From: a virus
Direction: 5' to 3' (one strand)
Length of the DNA: 64,000 nt
IMG/VR virus record: IMGVR_UViG_3300046492_000237
Location: 28,690 to 92,689 of that record
The notes under the pieces are model-generated. The model was given only the letters and a program-made list of their open reading frames with translations. It was not told where the DNA came from and searched no databases. Shown in pieces: positions 286 to 48,646 of the stretch. How positions within the stretch are numbered: the first letter of the stretch is position 1; each line of letters opens with the position of its first letter. The position numbers were made by a program, and so were the translations under genes.

Positions 286-2898
286 ATGAGCATCAAAATC
301 CCCGTTAGCGCCGAACTGAACCAGCAGCAGATCACCGGCCAAATTGATCAGGTCCGTGACGCACTGAACAACCTCGGTCGCGATGCTCAGGGTGCTGGCA
401 AGGTCAAATTTGACCCGATCAGCAATGTCAGCCTTGAGAACGTCAAGAAGATGCGCGCCGAGTTTGACGCCATCGTCAAGATGTCTCCGGGCCTGCGAAA
501 GGCGCTCGATGCTGCCGGTCAGGGCGGAAAGTCGTTTGATGAAGTCCGCTGGGGCAAGGTCTGGACCGATGACAAGCAGCGCCGTGAGCATGCCGCAACG
601 CTGCTGCGCCGTTTGGCTCCGAAGCAGATCTATGATCGCCCAGACCCAACGGTTCCACCGGTAAACGATCGTGGCGGGCCGGGCGGTATGGCCACGCCCG
701 GAACTGGTGGGTGGCGCCGCGCGGCGCTGGGTGGCGCTGCTGGTATTGCCGGTGGTGTGGCCAGCCAGATTGGCGGGATCGGCGGCGGAATTGCTTCTGG
801 GGCGCTTGCTGGCGGTCTGGCTGGCGGTCCTATTGGTGCTGCTGTCGGCGGTTTGGCTGGCGCCATCACCAGCTTGCTTGGCGCGATCGGCGAGGCTCGC
901 GATATCGCCATCGGCTTGGATACGCTGAAACGGACGCTCGGCGACACCAACGTGTCGTTCAAGGACCTGCAAGACAGCACGCGAAGCCTTGCCGACGAAT
1001 ACAGCCTTGCTGATGCAGAAGCCTCCGCGCTAACCAAGCGCTATGCCACTCTGGCAAACTCTGGCAAGGATACAGGCGCGCTGCGCAACGAGGTAGGTGT
1101 CGGTGTCGGGTTCTCACGTTCATTCGGCCTTGACCCGGCTGCGGGCGTTGGCTTCTTTGGCCAGATGCAGGGCATGGGGATCACCCGTGGTGCTGATGAC
1201 AGCAAAAAGCTTGCGCTGCTGATCGGTGAAAGCGTCGCCAAGGCCGGTGACCTGCCGCGTCTTGGCGACGTGCTGGCCGGACTCTCTCGCTTTATGGAAG
1301 GCGCCGCGAGAACCAGCCTGACAAATCCGAACTCGGCAGCATGGCTTTCGCGCTTCGCCGGGCTGGAAAACAGCGGGCTGGCCGGTATGGATCCGACCAC
1401 CGCCGCCAGCATCATCGGCAGCATTGACGGCAGCATCCGGCAGGGTGGCATCACCGAAGCCGGCAAAAACTTCATGAATGGTGTGTTGCAGCGCGATCAG
1501 GGCCTGAACACCATCCAATCCGCAATTCAGCTCGAAGGCGGCGCGTTCGGTACCGGTCGGTCAACCTTCGGCGCAGACTCGCCTATGTCGCGCTTTTATG
1601 CGCGATTCGGCGGCGGCTCGCCGCTAAGTTCTTGGGGCGCCGATGAAAGCAACATCAGCGTGCTGCAGCGCAATCTGGTCAAGCAGTACAGCGGCAAGCC
1701 TCCGGAACTGATGCTCGATGCGTTCAAAAACACCTTCGGCACCAGTTACGGGCAGTCGGCGGCGTGGATGGCCAGTGATCCCCAGCAGAACGACAGCATG
1801 CTCAAGCGTATGCAGCGGCTCGGCATCAACTGGAAGGACGTGAACGCGACCGGCGTGTCGAAAATGAGCCAGATTGAGGCTAACGGCAGCCTGTCGGAAA
1901 TGGACAAGGACAACCAGATCCGCAAGGCTGCCGCGAACTATCAGGAGGACACCGTAGGTTCCGAGGCGCGCCGGGCGAGCATTGACGGCTCGAACGCCAT
2001 GGTTCGTCTGGCGAACGAAGGCCTGCCGATGATCAGCTCTATTCAGGCTGGCGTGCTCAAGCTGGCGGGCCTTGACGGTTTTAGTCCGCAGAAGGCTGCG
2101 CTCAAGAGCGAGCACGAACGTCGGATGTCGGAAATCGACAACGGCCCACTGGCGGCCGAGCGCGCCAAGGCCGTGCAGAACTACAAGAAAGTGGTTCCCC
2201 TGTGGAAGCAGGTCAGCGGCGTCGGTCTGAACGATGAGGAGCAGCAGGCGAAGGATTGGCTCGACAACGCCAACAGCAATATTTCTGCGGCGCGCGAAGC
2301 AGAGGACGCCAAGTACAACAGCGGTCTGGATGTTCTGAACACCAACCCAAGTCCGGGGATCTCCTCGGCAGCAGTTAAGCCGACCGAGGATCTGCTGGCG
2401 CGCGCTGCTGAGTCCGACAAAAAGGCTGGGCTGCCACCGGGCACCACCGCTGCGCTCATGATGCAGGAAAGCGGTTTCAACTCGCAGGCTGTGAGCTCTG
2501 CTGGCGCACTCGGCATGCACCAGATCATGCCGTCGAACATCAAGACGCTATCCAACCGTGCCGGGCGCAATCTGGACCCGACCAACACCGCCGATTCGTT
2601 CTACATGTACGACGAGTTGATGGCTGAACGCAAACGCAAGTACGGCAGCGATACCGACAAGATGTTGCGCAGCTATCACGGCGGCTATGACGAAACCGAG
2701 TGGGGCAAAATCAATGCCGACTACATCCCGGCGATCGAGCGGCGCAAGCGTGAACTTGCAAAAAGCGGCGCCGGTACATCCGTGTCGCACAAGGTTGAGG
2801 TTGATGTCACCATGCGCGACCAGTCGGGCAACCCTATGAATAACGCCGCCATTAACACAACGGTCGGCAAACCAGTCGTCAGCGGGGCTGCTGAATAA
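286..2898 (+). CDS. tail length tape measure protein with C-terminal lytic transglycosylase domain
   Basis: 870 residues. A Gly/Ala-rich hydrophobic stretch at about residues 140-205 is typical of tape measures, which span the tail tube and set its length. At about residues 698-810 there is an SLT (soluble lytic transglycosylase) domain, with the likely catalytic Glu728 in MMQESGFN followed by AGALGMHQIMPS and SYHGG. This would cut peptidoglycan during DNA entry. It heads the tail operon and its TAA overlaps the next ATG (TAATG). Antisense ORFs over it are shadows. Confidence 0.9.
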   Translation: MSIKIPVSAELNQQQITGQIDQVRDALNNLGRDAQGAGKVKFDPISNVSLENVKKMRAEFDAIVKMSPGLRKALDAAGQGGKSFDEVRWGKVWTDDKQRREHAATLLRRLAPKQIYDRPDPTVPPVNDRGGPGGMATPGTGGWRRAALGGAAGIAGGVASQIGGIGGGIASGALAGGLAGGPIGAAVGGLAGAITSLLGAIGEARDIAIGLDTLKRTLGDTNVSFKDLQDSTRSLADEYSLADAEASALTKRYATLANSGKDTGALRNEVGVGVGFSRSFGLDPAAGVGFFGQMQGMGITRGADDSKKLALLIGESVAKAGDLPRLGDVLAGLSRFMEGAARTSLTNPNSAAWLSRFAGLENSGLAGMDPTTAASIIGSIDGSIRQGGITEAGKNFMNGVLQRDQGLNTIQSAIQLEGGAFGTGRSTFGADSPMSRFYARFGGGSPLSSWGADESNISVLQRNLVKQYSGKPPELMLDAFKNTFGTSYGQSAAWMASDPQQNDSMLKRMQRLGINWKDVNATGVSKMSQIEANGSLSEMDKDNQIRKAAANYQEDTVGSEARRASIDGSNAMVRLANEGLPMISSIQAGVLKLAGLDGFSPQKAALKSEHERRMSEIDNGPLAAERAKAVQNYKKVVPLWKQVSGVGLNDEEQQAKDWLDNANSNISAAREAEDAKYNSGLDVLNTNPSPGISSAAVKPTEDLLARAAESDKKAGLPPGTTAALMMQESGFNSQAVSSAGALGMHQIMPSNIKTLSNRAGRNLDPTNTADSFYMYDELMAERKRKYGSDTDKMLRSYHGGYDETEWGKINADYIPAIERRKRELAKSGAGTSVSHKVEVDVTMRDQSGNPMNNAAINTTVGKPVVSGAAE

Positions 2899-4406
2899 TG
2901 GATATCAAGGTTCACCTACCGCGCTATCAGGTGCTGGTCACGAAAACGGTAAAGCGCAAGACCGTGGACGGTTACATGCCTACTTCTGCGCGCTTTCAGG
3001 GCACACCGGATGCGATCGACCTCGCGCCGTGGCTTGGCGATGGGTCGTCGATATCGACGGTCAAGGGCATCAATCAGGCCGCCGGTGGATTCTCCATCAC
3101 TGTCCCTGACATGCCGATCACCACCACAACCGGCGGCCTCGATACGCTATACGGCGTAATTGAGCCGATGGACCTTGTTCAGATCAAGGTTCAGCACTCG
3201 CCGTCGACGTGGGCCGGGAATAAGGCCCCGGTGATCATGCGCGGGTTCGTCTCGAAGGTCAGCCGGCAGGAAGGGATGTCGCCTGATGGTAAGCCTGGGC
3301 GATTCGTCACCATCAACGGGCAGGACTACGGGAAGATCTGGCAGATCATTCAGATTTTCTACGGGCCATCGTACATCTTTGGCGAAGACATCCTGTCGGC
3401 ATTCAAGTTGATGGATAAGTTCGGCGCGGGCTTCAAAAACGCCATGAGCAACGTCGAGTTCCTGCAAACGGCCATCGACAAGATCATCAACCCGTTCCTG
3501 CAACGCCTTCTGCCAGAGGGCAGCGGGTTCCCGCTGATCACACTGAACACCGACCACGTCGTCGAGGGTGCGGTCGGTATCGCCGGGATCCAGTCAGCTG
3601 AGGGCACGATCTACCAGCTGATGCGCAATTATCTGGACGTCGGCCCATTCAACGAGCTGTTTCTCGCTGATGATGATGCTGGTGTCCACTGCATCTATCG
3701 GCAGAACCCGGCGATCGGGCTGGATGGCTATCCGCTCGCGCCAGATGTTACAGATGCACCGGCGGCGGATCCGCTGATCGTTCCGGACGCCAACACCCTG
3801 AACATCATCGACATCCCTGCCGAGGACGTGATTGCGCTGGATGTGTCCCGCTCCGATGAGGGCGTGGGGAACTATTACTGGGTGTCGGCTCCGGGGTTCA
3901 GCCTGAACAGTGACACCCTGCAGCGCCAGATGGGTTACAGCAGCGCGGAACGGGCGACCATTGACCTGTCGGAGTACCCGAACAGCGCATCGGCACTGTA
4001 CGGTACCCGGCTGATGTGGATCGACACCAAGCTGGGCGGCCCTGCGGTCACCAACACAAAATCGGGATTGACCGAGCCAGAGCAAGAGCAGCGGGACGGC
4101 AATCTCTTTGACTGGCTGCGCACTCGCCGTGAGTTTCTGGTGGCGCAGAACCGCGACAACAGCATTCTCGAAAGCGGCACGTTGCGCATGCGTGGAAACG
4201 AGAACATCCGCGCCGGGAACTATGTCCGGGTGCTGCGTGGCAACTTTTCATCGGTGTTCTATGTGACCTCGGTTTCGCACAACATCCTGCCATTGCGAGG
4301 CTTTTACAGCACGCTGACCCTGTCGCGCGGCACCGGGTTTGCCAACCGTGTGCGCATGGCTGGCGGCGTCGATTCTCCTTATCTCAGCGAGCTGACCGGT
4401 CTATGA
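2898..4406 (+). CDS. baseplate hub protein (T4 gp27 / gpD-like)
   Basis: 502 residues; the start overlaps the tape measure stop. Position between tape measure and spike, length, and the N-terminal beta-rich pattern followed by FVSKVSRQEG and a long helix-turn region fit the tail hub that carries the spike and joins tube to baseplate. The C-terminal part (MRGNENIRAGNYVRVLRGNF, then VTSVSHNILPLRGF) is typical of hub proteins, where a beta domain is followed by VxxVxH. Overlaps the next gene by 4 bp. The assignment rests on order and pattern, not on a catalytic motif. Confidence 0.75.
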   Translation: MDIKVHLPRYQVLVTKTVKRKTVDGYMPTSARFQGTPDAIDLAPWLGDGSSISTVKGINQAAGGFSITVPDMPITTTTGGLDTLYGVIEPMDLVQIKVQHSPSTWAGNKAPVIMRGFVSKVSRQEGMSPDGKPGRFVTINGQDYGKIWQIIQIFYGPSYIFGEDILSAFKLMDKFGAGFKNAMSNVEFLQTAIDKIINPFLQRLLPEGSGFPLITLNTDHVVEGAVGIAGIQSAEGTIYQLMRNYLDVGPFNELFLADDDAGVHCIYRQNPAIGLDGYPLAPDVTDAPAADPLIVPDANTLNIIDIPAEDVIALDVSRSDEGVGNYYWVSAPGFSLNSDTLQRQMGYSSAERATIDLSEYPNSASALYGTRLMWIDTKLGGPAVTNTKSGLTEPEQEQRDGNLFDWLRTRREFLVAQNRDNSILESGTLRMRGNENIRAGNYVRVLRGNFSSVFYVTSVSHNILPLRGFYSTLTLSRGTGFANRVRMAGGVDSPYLSELTGL

Positions 4407-5170
4407 GCACGAAAACACGCGGTAAGGTAGTTGCGATTCACCCTGAGGACCATTCGTGCGATGTCCGCCTTCTGCGCGACGGCTGTCTGCTGGCGGGCCT
4501 TCAAATTCTGTCGCAATCGGCCAGCACCAACACCGGCCTCAACGATCTGGCCGTGCCGACTACGCCGCCGGACAATCAATGGACCCAACGCACCGATCGG
4601 GACATCATCGCCATCGTGGACTGGTGCGATGGCGTGCCCTACGTTGAGGGTTTCCTATTTCCGCAAATTTGCCAGATGACGTTCAAGGAGCAGAACCGGA
4701 AGATCGATCGTCACGCCTCGGACTTCTATCACACGGTTGATGCGGCCGGTAACGCGGAGTGGTATCACCCGAGCGGAACCTATCTGCGGATGGGCGAGAA
4801 TCCGGCGCATGAGGATCTGACCGGCAAGGACGCCGACAAGAAGTGGGCAATCACCAAGAACACCGCGCGCGCTCCGCATGTGCGGCTGGTGGTGGCCAGT
4901 GGTGGTGCTGCGGCACTCACGATCAATGCTGATCCGGCGGGCAACCTGACCATCACCAGCGCTGCGGGAACGGCCACGCTGGTGTTCCCCGGCGGTACGA
5001 CCATTGATACGCCGCTGACCACTATGACCGGCGACCTAAAAGTTGATGGAAACATCAAGGCAGATGGCGAGATCGAGGACCACACCCGCTCGATGCAAGG
5101 CGACCGCGAGATCTACAACGTCCATACCCACCCGGCTAACGCCACTCAGGCGCCGAACCAACAGATGTAA
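4403..5170 (+). CDS. baseplate spike protein (gpV / gp5-like)
   Basis: 255 residues. The N-terminal half is the OB-fold type found in gpV/gp5 spikes (KTRGKVVAIHPEDHSCDVRL). The C-terminal part is a repetitive beta-helix-like segment (GDLKVDGNIKADGEIED) ending in VHTHP at about residues 240-244. A His-x-His at the end of such spikes usually binds the metal ion of the membrane-piercing tip. Translationally coupled to the hub gene. Confidence 0.85.
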   Translation: MSTKTRGKVVAIHPEDHSCDVRLLRDGCLLAGLQILSQSASTNTGLNDLAVPTTPPDNQWTQRTDRDIIAIVDWCDGVPYVEGFLFPQICQMTFKEQNRKIDRHASDFYHTVDAAGNAEWYHPSGTYLRMGENPAHEDLTGKDADKKWAITKNTARAPHVRLVVASGGAAALTINADPAGNLTITSAAGTATLVFPGGTTIDTPLTTMTGDLKVDGNIKADGEIEDHTRSMQGDREIYNVHTHPANATQAPNQQM

Positions 5171-5178
5171 ATCCGTCG

Positions 5179-45953: not shown

Positions 45954-46040
45954 TTCGCAATCAGGGCGTCTGCAACAAAAAACTCTTATAAATCAACGTC
46001 ATTGCGTGCGCCGCTGGATTCTAGGGCGCACATAGGGCGC
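45948..46040 (+). repeat. intergenic cassette A
   Basis: CCCTGATT-CGC-AATCAGGG hairpin then CGTC (45948-45970), followed by a GGGCGC pair (46024-46029 and 46035-46040). One of five related intergenic elements on the + strand; this copy lacks the TTC before GGGCGC. Confidence 0.65.
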
Positions 46041-46077
46041 AGATCTTTTTCGCTTAATCCGGCGCATTTGCTAAGGC

Positions 46078-46102
46078 ATTGATCATATTTGATTGATATA
46101 CT
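46078..46102 (+). promoter_or_regulatory. rightward promoter region with palindromic operator
   Basis: ATTGATCATATTTGATTGAT (46078-46097) is the dispersed palindrome; TATACT at 46097-46102 is a good -10 box. The -35 is weak. Upstream of the DUF4406-like and methyltransferase genes. Confidence 0.55.
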
Positions 46103-46139
46103 GGCGCCCTTCGCTGCACTCACGATTCGGGGGAACACC

Positions 46140-46568
46140 ATGGATTCATCACCGCAACCACGCCTGCCAGTTGTGTACATCGCCGGGCCTTACCGCGCCG
46201 CGACGCAAGCCGGCATCGAGCTGAACATCCAAGCCGCTCGGTCGATGGGTCTGCAAGCCATTCGCCGTGGCTGGTCGCCGATCATCCCGCACTGCAACTT
46301 CGCGCTGCTGGATCTGGTCGACCCTGCCATTGGCGACAGCTTCTGGCTGGCCGCGACCATGGAACACATGCGCCGGGCCGACGTGGTGCTGCTGGTGCCG
46401 GGCTGGGAGAATTCGACCGGCACTCAGGCCGAGGTGCGGGAAGCGCGCCGCCTGAACATCCCGGTTTTCTACGCGCTGGACAAACTCACGGACGGCGCCG
46501 AGTACATGGTCCAGTGCGCAAAGATTCGTGACTTGGTCTCCGTCGTGATGGCAGGTTCGCAGGCATGA
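46140..46568 (+). CDS. DUF4406-like protein (nucleoside deoxyribosyltransferase fold)
   Basis: 142 residues from ATG at 46140. VVYIAGPYRA, the GWSPIIPHCNF segment, and VVLLVPGWENSTGTQAEVRE are the family pattern of DUF4406, related to nucleoside 2-deoxyribosyltransferases. The Glu in QAEVREA would be the nucleophile position. May act on nucleotides. Overlaps the methyltransferase by 4 bp, so the two are coupled. Confidence 0.85.
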   Translation: MDSSPQPRLPVVYIAGPYRAATQAGIELNIQAARSMGLQAIRRGWSPIIPHCNFALLDLVDPAIGDSFWLAATMEHMRRADVVLLVPGWENSTGTQAEVREARRLNIPVFYALDKLTDGAEYMVQCAKIRDLVSVVMAGSQA

Positions 46569-48232
46569 ACACGACCACCCAACCCTTCACACTGCATCTG
46601 GGCGACTGCCTCGATGTGCTGCGCACTCTGCCGGATAACTCGGTGGATAGCGTCGTGACCGATCCGCCGTATGCGTTGCCCGGCGGTTTCATGGGCAAAA
46701 CATGGGACAACTTCGACGGTCGCGAGGATGCTGGGTTTGGTTACTGGCTCGCCGGCTTCACCGATGGTGAGGGCCATTTCCGCGTCCAGAAGCACGAACG
46801 CGGTTCGCACACTTGCGTATTCCAGATCAAGACTCGCGACGATGATCGCGCCGTGCTTGAGCGCATCAAGCGCTTCCTCGGCGTCGGAGTGATTTACGAG
46901 GGCGAAGGCAGCGGCAATGCCAACCCGCAGTGCGCATACATCGTCCAAGACAAGGAGGGCTGCGCTCGCGTTGTCGCCTTGTTCCGCAAGTACCCGCTGA
47001 CCGCCAAGAAGGCGCTCGACTTCGAGATTTGGGCCGAGGCTGTCGAGGAGTGGCTTGAGCGACCGAGAGGCAATCGTTGGCAGGGTATGGCTGACCAAGC
47101 GCGCGCTGCATCGCTGAAAGCTCGACTCGAAGACGTTCGCCGATACACGGGAATCCCTTGGTCTGGGCATAACTTTCAAGATTGGGTGCGCCAATGGGCA
47201 ACCGAGTGCCTTCGAGTGCTGAAGCCCGGCGGCCACATGCTGGCTTTCGGCGCTCCGCGCCAGTATCACCGCCTTGCGGCTGGTATCGAGGACGCCGGCT
47301 TCGAGATCCGCGACCAGATCATGTGGGTGTTCGGCTCAGGCTTCCCGAAGTCGCACAACCTCAAGGGTGACCACGCTGGTTGGGGCACCGCGCTCAAGCC
47401 AGCACACGAACCGATTTGCATGGCGCGAAAGCCGCTGATCGGCACGGTGCTGGCAAACGTTACGGCGTTCGGGACTGGTGCGATGAACATCGACGCCTGT
47501 CGGATCCAGACTGGCGACAACCTGAACGGTGGCGCTTACGTCGACGGCGGTCGTAAGTCGGTCTCGGATTCGATGCGTCAGGGCAGCGGCATGAACGCCG
47601 TTGGCTCATCGGCGGGCGAATACGTCCAGCCCTCCGGTCGATGGCCAGCCAACCTGATCCACGATGGCAGCCCGGAGGTGGTGGCGATGTTCCCCGCCGA
47701 GGCCGGCGCATCTGCTCCGGTCAAGGGCTCCGAGCCAACCGCCAATGGATTCAGCGGGTCTGTGAAGTTCAGCGGGTTGATTGGGCGCGTCGAGGGCGCA
47801 TTTCACGGTGACAGCGGCAGTGCCGCACGGTTTTTCTACTGTGCCAAGACCAGCCGACGCGACCGCAACGAGGGGCTGGTCGATCCCGGGCCGCAGTTCA
47901 AGCGCGGCACCACGCTACGCAAGGTCGAGAACACCGACACCAAGGGCAACAACCATCCGACCGTCAAGCCGACTGAGCTGATGGCGTACCTGCTGCGACT
48001 GGTCACGCCGGTTGGCGGCACAACGCTCGATCCGTTCCTCGGCAGTGGTAGCACCGGCAAGGCCGCGATGCTCGAAGGCTTCGAGTTCATTGGGATCGAG
48101 AAGGAAGCGCCGTACATGGCCATCGCCAGCGCGCGGATCTGTCACGCTCACGCCGCTGCCGTCGCCGCCGCTGATCTGGCGGACGCTGTCGCCAACCCAG
48201 TGCAGGCCGACCTGTTTGGGCTGCTGGCATGA
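46565..48232 (+). CDS. DNA methyltransferase with an in-frame LAGLIDADG endonuclease domain
   Basis: 555 residues. Methyltransferase motif IV is TDPPYALP (about 32-39), the target-strand segment resumes at ECLRVLKPGGHMLAFG (about 214-229), and motif I is LDPFLGSGSTGKAA near 500. Between them, residues about 59-202 form an insert with WLAGFTDGEGHF (LAGLIDADG motif, 62-70) and KYPLTAKKALDFEIWAEAVE, the ends of a single-motif LAGLIDADG endonuclease. Without the insert the text would read DGREDAGF to FQDWVRQWATECL, as in related enzymes. No stop interrupts and no intein splicing blocks are seen. Whether the methyltransferase is active with the insert is unknown. Confidence 0.85.
   Translation: MNTTTQPFTLHLGDCLDVLRTLPDNSVDSVVTDPPYALPGGFMGKTWDNFDGREDAGFGYWLAGFTDGEGHFRVQKHERGSHTCVFQIKTRDDDRAVLERIKRFLGVGVIYEGEGSGNANPQCAYIVQDKEGCARVVALFRKYPLTAKKALDFEIWAEAVEEWLERPRGNRWQGMADQARAASLKARLEDVRRYTGIPWSGHNFQDWVRQWATECLRVLKPGGHMLAFGAPRQYHRLAAGIEDAGFEIRDQIMWVFGSGFPKSHNLKGDHAGWGTALKPAHEPICMARKPLIGTVLANVTAFGTGAMNIDACRIQTGDNLNGGAYVDGGRKSVSDSMRQGSGMNAVGSSAGEYVQPSGRWPANLIHDGSPEVVAMFPAEAGASAPVKGSEPTANGFSGSVKFSGLIGRVEGAFHGDSGSAARFFYCAKTSRRDRNEGLVDPGPQFKRGTTLRKVENTDTKGNNHPTVKPTELMAYLLRLVTPVGGTTLDPFLGSGSTGKAAMLEGFEFIGIEKEAPYMAIASARICHAHAAAVAAADLADAVANPVQADLFGLLA
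46739..47174 (+). mobile_element. LAGLIDADG homing-endonuclease insert inside the methyltransferase
   Basis: About 144 codons inserted in frame between methyltransferase residues near 58 and 203. It has one LAGLIDADG motif, so it should act as a homodimer. An intein would need N-terminal splicing block A before the nuclease and HN followed by Cys, Ser or Thr at its end; here the motif starts at once and the end reads GHN followed by Phe. So it is better read as an invaded, fused nuclease. Borders are estimated to within a few codons. Confidence 0.7.
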
Positions 48233-48597
48233 ACGCCTGCAGCTGGATTCACGATGTGGTCACGCTGGCCGATGGCCGCAAGATCGCCAGCAACAGCGAG
48301 GAGTGGCGCGCCGAGTGTGAGGCGCGCCACGTCCTGCGCATGAACCACACGGCGCGCACTGAATTCATGGCGTTCATCGAGCAGCGACGCGGCGCTTCTG
48401 CTGCCGAAAGCCTGCGCGCCTGCATCGAGGCGACCGAACCTGCCTACGTGCTGGAGCTGCCGAACAAGGCCCAGCGCAACGCCTATCTGCGCACGGTCGA
48501 GCTGAATCAGGGCGAGAACGCATCCGAGCACCTGCGCAACCGCTGCATGGACTTGCATGGCCAGCGTGAAGCCGCTTGTGCAGCGTCTGCCGCGTAA
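48229..48597 (+). CDS. unknown protein coupled to the methyltransferase
   Basis: 122 residues; overlaps the methyltransferase by 4 bp. WRAECEARHVLRM and YLRTVELNQGENASEHLRNR, typical of a phage family of unknown function (DUF7696-like, tentative). Charged, cytoplasmic. Confidence 0.65.
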   Translation: MNACSWIHDVVTLADGRKIASNSEEWRAECEARHVLRMNHTARTEFMAFIEQRRGASAAESLRACIEATEPAYVLELPNKAQRNAYLRTVELNQGENASEHLRNRCMDLHGQREAACAASAA

Positions 48598-48646
48598 CGC
48601 ATAATTGAGCAATGACGCCGTTATCCCAACGGCTAACGGTGAATAC

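Follow-up and report, generated by a model that had tools for sequence, protein, structure and literature searches.

An in-frame LAGLIDADG nuclease without recognised splicing parts in a variable loop of phage N6/N4 DNA methyltransferases

Described inserts in the methyltransferase family

Homing nucleases are thought to require introns, inteins or intergenic space, sparing the host gene. In one family of DNA methyltransferases (MTases), Gosselin et al. in 2023 described three elements, namely an intein, the ShiLan domain and a 'second', lone LAGLIDADG nuclease (PMC9957025). They reported the lone LAGLIDADG insert from nine genes of F-cluster mycobacteriophages and saw no strong evidence that it had been transferred (PMC9957025); a 2025 paper describes the insert as one that 'appears to be vertically inherited' (PMC11855218). 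The Taj homolog as modelled with AlphaFold has the nuclease as a separate domain, and the remainder is similar to an insert-free methylase (PMC9957025).

We analysed an MTase gene with such a lone nuclease in the window, i.e., the whole 64,000-nucleotide stretch of viral DNA considered here. The genes of Taj, Kersh and Mantra align with it, having the same host gene family, site and nuclease lineage. The lone insert of actinophage methylases (Taj_79, Kersh; PMC9957025, PMC11855218) thus shares its MTase family, loop and nuclease clade with the window insert and, like it, is in frame, with no splicing domain or intron found. The newness implied by a preliminary description of this locus is therefore not borne out, as a lone LAGLIDADG insert in the same family and place had been published (PMC9957025; PMC11855218). 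What is new is the evidence for movement, together with the range: compared with the nine published F-cluster mycobacteriophages, the insert is also found here in a Pseudomonas-like phage, in Rhodobacter phages (on a more distant nuclease branch), in IMG/VR contigs and in a Planctomycetes MAG. The search of genome contigs gave one match, the Planctomycetales MAG contig, and the search of plasmids gave none.

The other known systems differ more. The ShiLan domain (PMC11855218) is, like the window element, an unspliced selfish insert in the same MTase family, but it is an HNH nuclease, coded out of frame, at a different site. As a separate observation, two IMG/VR loci (L111, IMGVR_UViG_3300045454_000015, 3439-5171; L091, IMGVR_UViG_3300016664_000170, 2517-4540) hold LAGLIDADG-bearing MTases that are split again after GRWPANLIL, the second interruption being an ORF in a different frame that resembles an HNH endonuclease. 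The intein of this methylase family (Dorothy_75, and here also Akhila, L082) is likewise an in-frame nuclease-bearing insert, but has self-splicing parts and occupies another site, within AWLYG/SGFPK. At the Akhila locus (2471-5152), a single MTase gene contains both a lone LAGLIDADG insert and a downstream intein-like piece, running from CLTADTEV to FITGN. A distant parallel is the fungal mitochondrial rps3-LAGLIDADG (PMC7902536), in which a LAGLIDADG coding sequence likewise forms an in-frame fusion with a host protein; the host protein is another one, however, and the rps3 frame lies inside a group I intron of rnl (PMC7902536). With the terms used, our literature search found no further published in-frame unspliced cases.

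Architecture of the fused gene

The ORF at 46565-48232 on the plus strand is a stop-free frame of 555 aa coding for an N6/N4 DNA methyltransferase (PF01555 N6_N4_Mtase in Pfam, E 1.2e-30), its best PHROG being DNA methyltransferase family 67 (E 3.4e-75). Its N-terminal part (46565..46735, plus strand; assigned through PF01555 and PHROG 67) includes motif IV, DPPY (46661-46672, plus strand), and the FMGKTWD block, both 5' of the insert. On the 3' side, the C-terminal part (47174..48232, plus strand; assigned from the frame, Pfam and conserved columns) comprises FQDW, LKPGG, motif I, DPFLGSGSTG (48029-48058, plus strand), and the stop codon. D33-P34-P35-Y36 is invariant in 55 aligned MTase relatives, 12 other insert-bearing ones among them, and the DPFxGSG columns are likewise kept across these 55. 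The virus record containing the window has 92,689 bases and carries the insert once. Since the Pseudomonas phages Touem01, Dolphis and Jeremy carry DNA related to the window, the window may plausibly come from a phage of Pseudomonas type. Directly upstream, an ORF at 46140-46568 overlaps the MTase start; in Touem01 this position holds an N-(deoxy)ribosyltransferase-like gene.

Between the two MTase parts lies an in-frame, single-motif LAGLIDADG homing endonuclease insert of 146 codons (58-203; 46736..47173, plus strand), identified through PF00961, the linkers of relatives and free-standing homologs, with the LAGFTDGEG motif at 46748-46774 on the plus strand. PF00961 (LAGLIDADG_1) matches residues 62-159 with an E value of 5e-17 and 63.1 bits (cut-off 23.1), and spans profile positions 1-101 of 102; the profile of the insert also matches solved LAGLIDADG structures (best E 6.6e-24). 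Both Pfam matches agree with the preliminary description, which had placed a LAGLIDADG domain in frame inside a 555-codon MTase frame with DPPY and DPFLGSGSTG.

Comparison with uninterrupted relatives puts the insert between the conserved blocks FMGKxWD and FQxW, the extra region being absent from an insert-free sister phage (L006), Touem01, Dolphis and many other relatives. Its borders were set by insert-free linkers of 38-41 aa, e.g., WDTHDTPRAFQAW, with the start of the free-standing homologs, FGHWLAGFIDGEG, as a second guide. A short insert-free form in one relative (L173), DPPYSLAFMGRTWDTHDTPRAFQAWCETWAAECLRVLKPGG, aligns with WDNFDGREDAG, insert, FQDWVRQWATECLRVLKPGG. The borders at codons 58-203 are precise to plus or minus a few residues, and the 46739-47174 first proposed was only a few bases off. 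The insert starts with FGYW, or FAYW and similar, and DGEG, the catalytic acid motif, is invariant in 30 out of 30 nuclease homologs.

According to the preliminary description, introns and inteins are where LAGLIDADG nucleases normally live. The closest non-inserted relatives found for this one are instead encoded by small free-standing ORFs that show no sign of an intron. These single-motif phage ORFs (L120-L148) have the same domain and extent as the window insert, but they have their own start and stop and are not joined to an MTase of this family. Most of them are separate ORFs of 133-190 aa that begin FGHWLAGFIDGEG and have a similar end, RxY, and their loci have no adjoining MTase of the window family, save for a weak match in L134. 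Because the free-standing homologs share its extent, its beginning and a similar end, the insert is best read as a complete nuclease of the free-standing type without its own start and stop. It would presumably act as a homodimer. At another locus (L149, 2812-4104), LAGLIDADG_1 precedes, in an in-frame fusion, a SAM methyltransferase of another kind (Methyltransf_23, E 1e-13).

The insertion site had been called conserved, yet it lies in a loop, bounded by two conserved blocks, whose length varies naturally. From DPPY to LKPGG, insert-free relatives span 34-108 residues, falling into classes of 34-36, 38-43, 52-64, 69-81 and 102-108 residues, and insert-bearing genes span 188-217. The 102-108 residue class holds a Cys-rich, zinc-ribbon-like piece, seen in MTases of some Gordonia and Mycobacterium phages (L105, L110 and L099). 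That this loop already varies freely in evolution accounts for tolerance of the insert without splicing, and since it accepts many lengths, the fused enzyme probably still folds and methylates. It may also be, though we regard this as improbable, that the loop after motif IV is a docking site for the exchange of whole DNA-binding modules, in which the nuclease would persist unspliced, at once a mobile element and a functioning part of the enzyme, with MTase target recognition changing with the module.

Splicing and the function of the two parts

The reading of the insert as a 'naked' homing domain translated together with the MTase was upheld by the open frame and by the lack of identifiable splicing parts. 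An Rfam search of 46000-48600 gave no match at E<=1, and a group I intron core was not found there; at the Rfam gathering thresholds, there was no match in 15 insert-bearing loci nor in 20 loci with mostly free-standing homologs. A group I intron was rejected on this basis. As the preliminary description had noted for intein blocks, no Hint-type Pfam domain or intein splicing block was found in the window ORF. The C-termini of the inserts differ (WSGHN-F, WSGHK-F, WSGNE-F and WSGDG-Y), so there is no conserved intein C-terminus. The residue after the insert is F or Y, not Cys, Ser or Thr, and the N-terminus is F-G-Y-W, not Cys or Ser. Because the nuclease domain fills the insert, neither a ribozyme nor the splicing domain of an intein would fit. 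An intein was rejected since its splicing parts are absent, and an artefact because many independent relatives carry the same arrangement.

Hidden splicing, with the insert being an intron that escaped recognition, an intein of unusual type or a segment skipped by the ribosome, can still be proposed, as the term 'unspliced' for lone elements rests on the absence of recognised splicing parts. We consider it extremely improbable: the nuclease occupies nearly the whole insert, neither Rfam nor Hint matches were obtained, the loop accepts other lengths, and the reading frame stays open across the two junctions in about 20 distinct loci that carry the insert, which would not be needed if the insert were spliced out.

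Both the nuclease and the MTase parts look maintained, judging from substitution patterns. Between the window and its relative L087, the inserts have reached saturation at synonymous sites (pS 0.86) but are still 93% identical in amino acids (dN 0.053). In the main insert group as a whole, the insert has a lower dN than the MTase body, which is itself under purifying selection in insert-bearing genes according to substitution rates. Methylation is presumably retained and the nuclease presumably active; the fusion may be bifunctional, one of the options named in the preliminary description.

The stronger constraint on the insert could also mean a function for the host enzyme. The LAGLIDADG domain would then serve the MTase, for instance as an additional module for DNA recognition, or by providing the nuclease in a restriction-modification enzyme made of one polypeptide; the latter idea was already raised in PMC9957025. 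A domesticated fusion would agree with the strong purifying selection on the insert and with its in-frame retention over the long term. Such domestication seems unlikely to us given the patchiness of the insert between sister phages, and PMC9957025 itself holds a restriction-modification role unlikely, as the sites of LAGLIDADG nucleases are long and none of these enzymes is known in restriction-modification systems. Alternatively, the insert may have killed the MTase and now be in the course of being lost. Three related loci (L130, L131 and L132) have a frame break downstream in the MTase, at ~3576-3837, soon after an LKPGG-like block (KPGC), which may be decay, another insertion or a sequencing error. 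But the catalytic motifs are intact in both domains of the window gene, and the purifying selection on the MTase body of insert-bearing genes also speaks against a dead relic, which we regard as very unlikely. Loss of MTase function appears less likely because the catalytic motifs are invariant in insert-bearing copies.

Movement of the insert between phages

Comparison with the insert-free sister of the window phage, a 93.5 kb virus record (L006), revealed a replacement, co-conversion-like tract at 46455..47296 on the plus strand (from sliding identity, ends approximate). The two phages share ~95% DNA identity on both sides of the tract, whereas inside it identity is 63-77%, in addition to the insert. 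The sister is thus a close homolog without the insert, and the refuting condition named in the preliminary description, that such homologs be lacking, does not hold. The edges are sharp, with sliding identity changing from 0.93 to 0.68 near 46457 and from 0.63 to 0.98 near 47297. Throughout this stretch the similarity of the sister to a third phage (L007) remains fairly even, which suggests that the window allele, not the sister allele, is the newcomer. A second insert-plus/minus pair (L002 and L008) has a replacement tract that is larger and less sharp, and in a third, the Rhodobacter phages RcMrWorf and RcKeef, the flanks are 98-100% identical. Together with RcMcLean (L103), these cultivated phages (L094 and L102, respectively) form a natural insert-plus/minus set at the MTase gene gp52. 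The mycobacteriophages Kersh and ShroomBoi make a fourth pair of this kind. In a search with joined flanks for an insert-free allele flanked exactly as in the window, the relatives retrieved all had linkers that are shorter or otherwise different and do not define the target to the base; no cleavage site was identified.

In the nuclease tree, the window falls within a clade of 14 in-MTase nucleases that includes the mycobacteriophage ones (support 100/99), and two more small in-MTase groups (the Rhodobacter type, and L130/L137) branch apart; this topology leaves room for a single origin of all in-MTase nucleases. Insert status requires 3 changes on the nuclease tree and 14 changes for 17 carriers on the MTase-body tree, from which coarse counts alone were taken since its bootstrap support is unsettled. 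The mean of shuffled assignments on the latter is 16.0, with 38 of 500 shuffles as low, and the presence of the insert thus appears nearly random on the MTase tree. As controls, we counted changes for insert-free loop classes on the same tree, which gave 11 against 12.5 in shuffled data for the short class (34-36), 11 against 12.4 for the 69-77 class and 14 against 20.9 for the 79-81 class. All linker classes together require 41 changes, the minimum being 6. The replacement tracts and the scattered distribution fit homing, although other loop types shuffle too.

Since insert-free loop types shuffle nearly as much, generic recombination could move the nuclease without any cutting. The segment from DPPY to LKPGG would then be a recombination hot spot at which short, 80-aa, zinc-ribbon-like and LAGLIDADG modules are swapped, with the nuclease as a passenger or a DNA-binding module and its cutting irrelevant to spread. 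This is a serious possibility, even if we hold it to be the less probable one. All linker classes are scattered on the MTase-body tree, several as much as the LAGLIDADG class, and in Kersh and ShroomBoi, whose flanking DNA is 88-90% identical, a LAGLIDADG loop in the former stands exactly where the latter has a Cys-rich linker of 102 aa, a precise exchange of loops. However, the catalytic motif is present in all nuclease copies and dN is low, neither of which a dead passenger would need. Moreover, Taj, Mantra and Mova share a ~540-bp island with the insert that is ~99% identical inside otherwise diverged genes (for Taj and Mantra, pS is 0.01 in the insert and 0.37-0.45 in the flanking parts), which points to the recent spread of one allele. 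Overall, these comparisons offer strong evidence that the insert moves between phages. Because the segment is an exchange hot spot, it is movement that they demonstrate, the nuclease as its driver and the direction of change (gain versus loss) being inferred.

The explanation that we favour, and consider probable as a whole, is that of a mobile nuclease spread by segment replacement. A single-motif LAGLIDADG nuclease, of the type found in small free-standing genes, would have come to lie in frame in the loop of an orphan N6/N4 MTase and would be translated as part of it, with neither RNA nor protein splicing. As the loop tolerates changes in length, the enzyme would probably still fold and methylate, with the nuclease as a domain of its own. 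Spread would occur by replacement of a short segment in an insert-free allele, reaching, in the clearest cases, ~25-300 bp beyond each end of the insert, and most likely begun by the nuclease cutting the insert-free allele, which would be repaired from the insert-bearing one.

Insert-plus/minus sisters, above all the cultivated RcMrWorf and RcKeef, offer a direct way to test both homing and methylation. The element had been held not to move between lineages, a published view that needs revision. A clade of homing nucleases inside an apparently intact enzyme, seemingly unspliced, in phages of unrelated bacteria would represent a third way for such nucleases to persist, namely in a length-tolerant loop.
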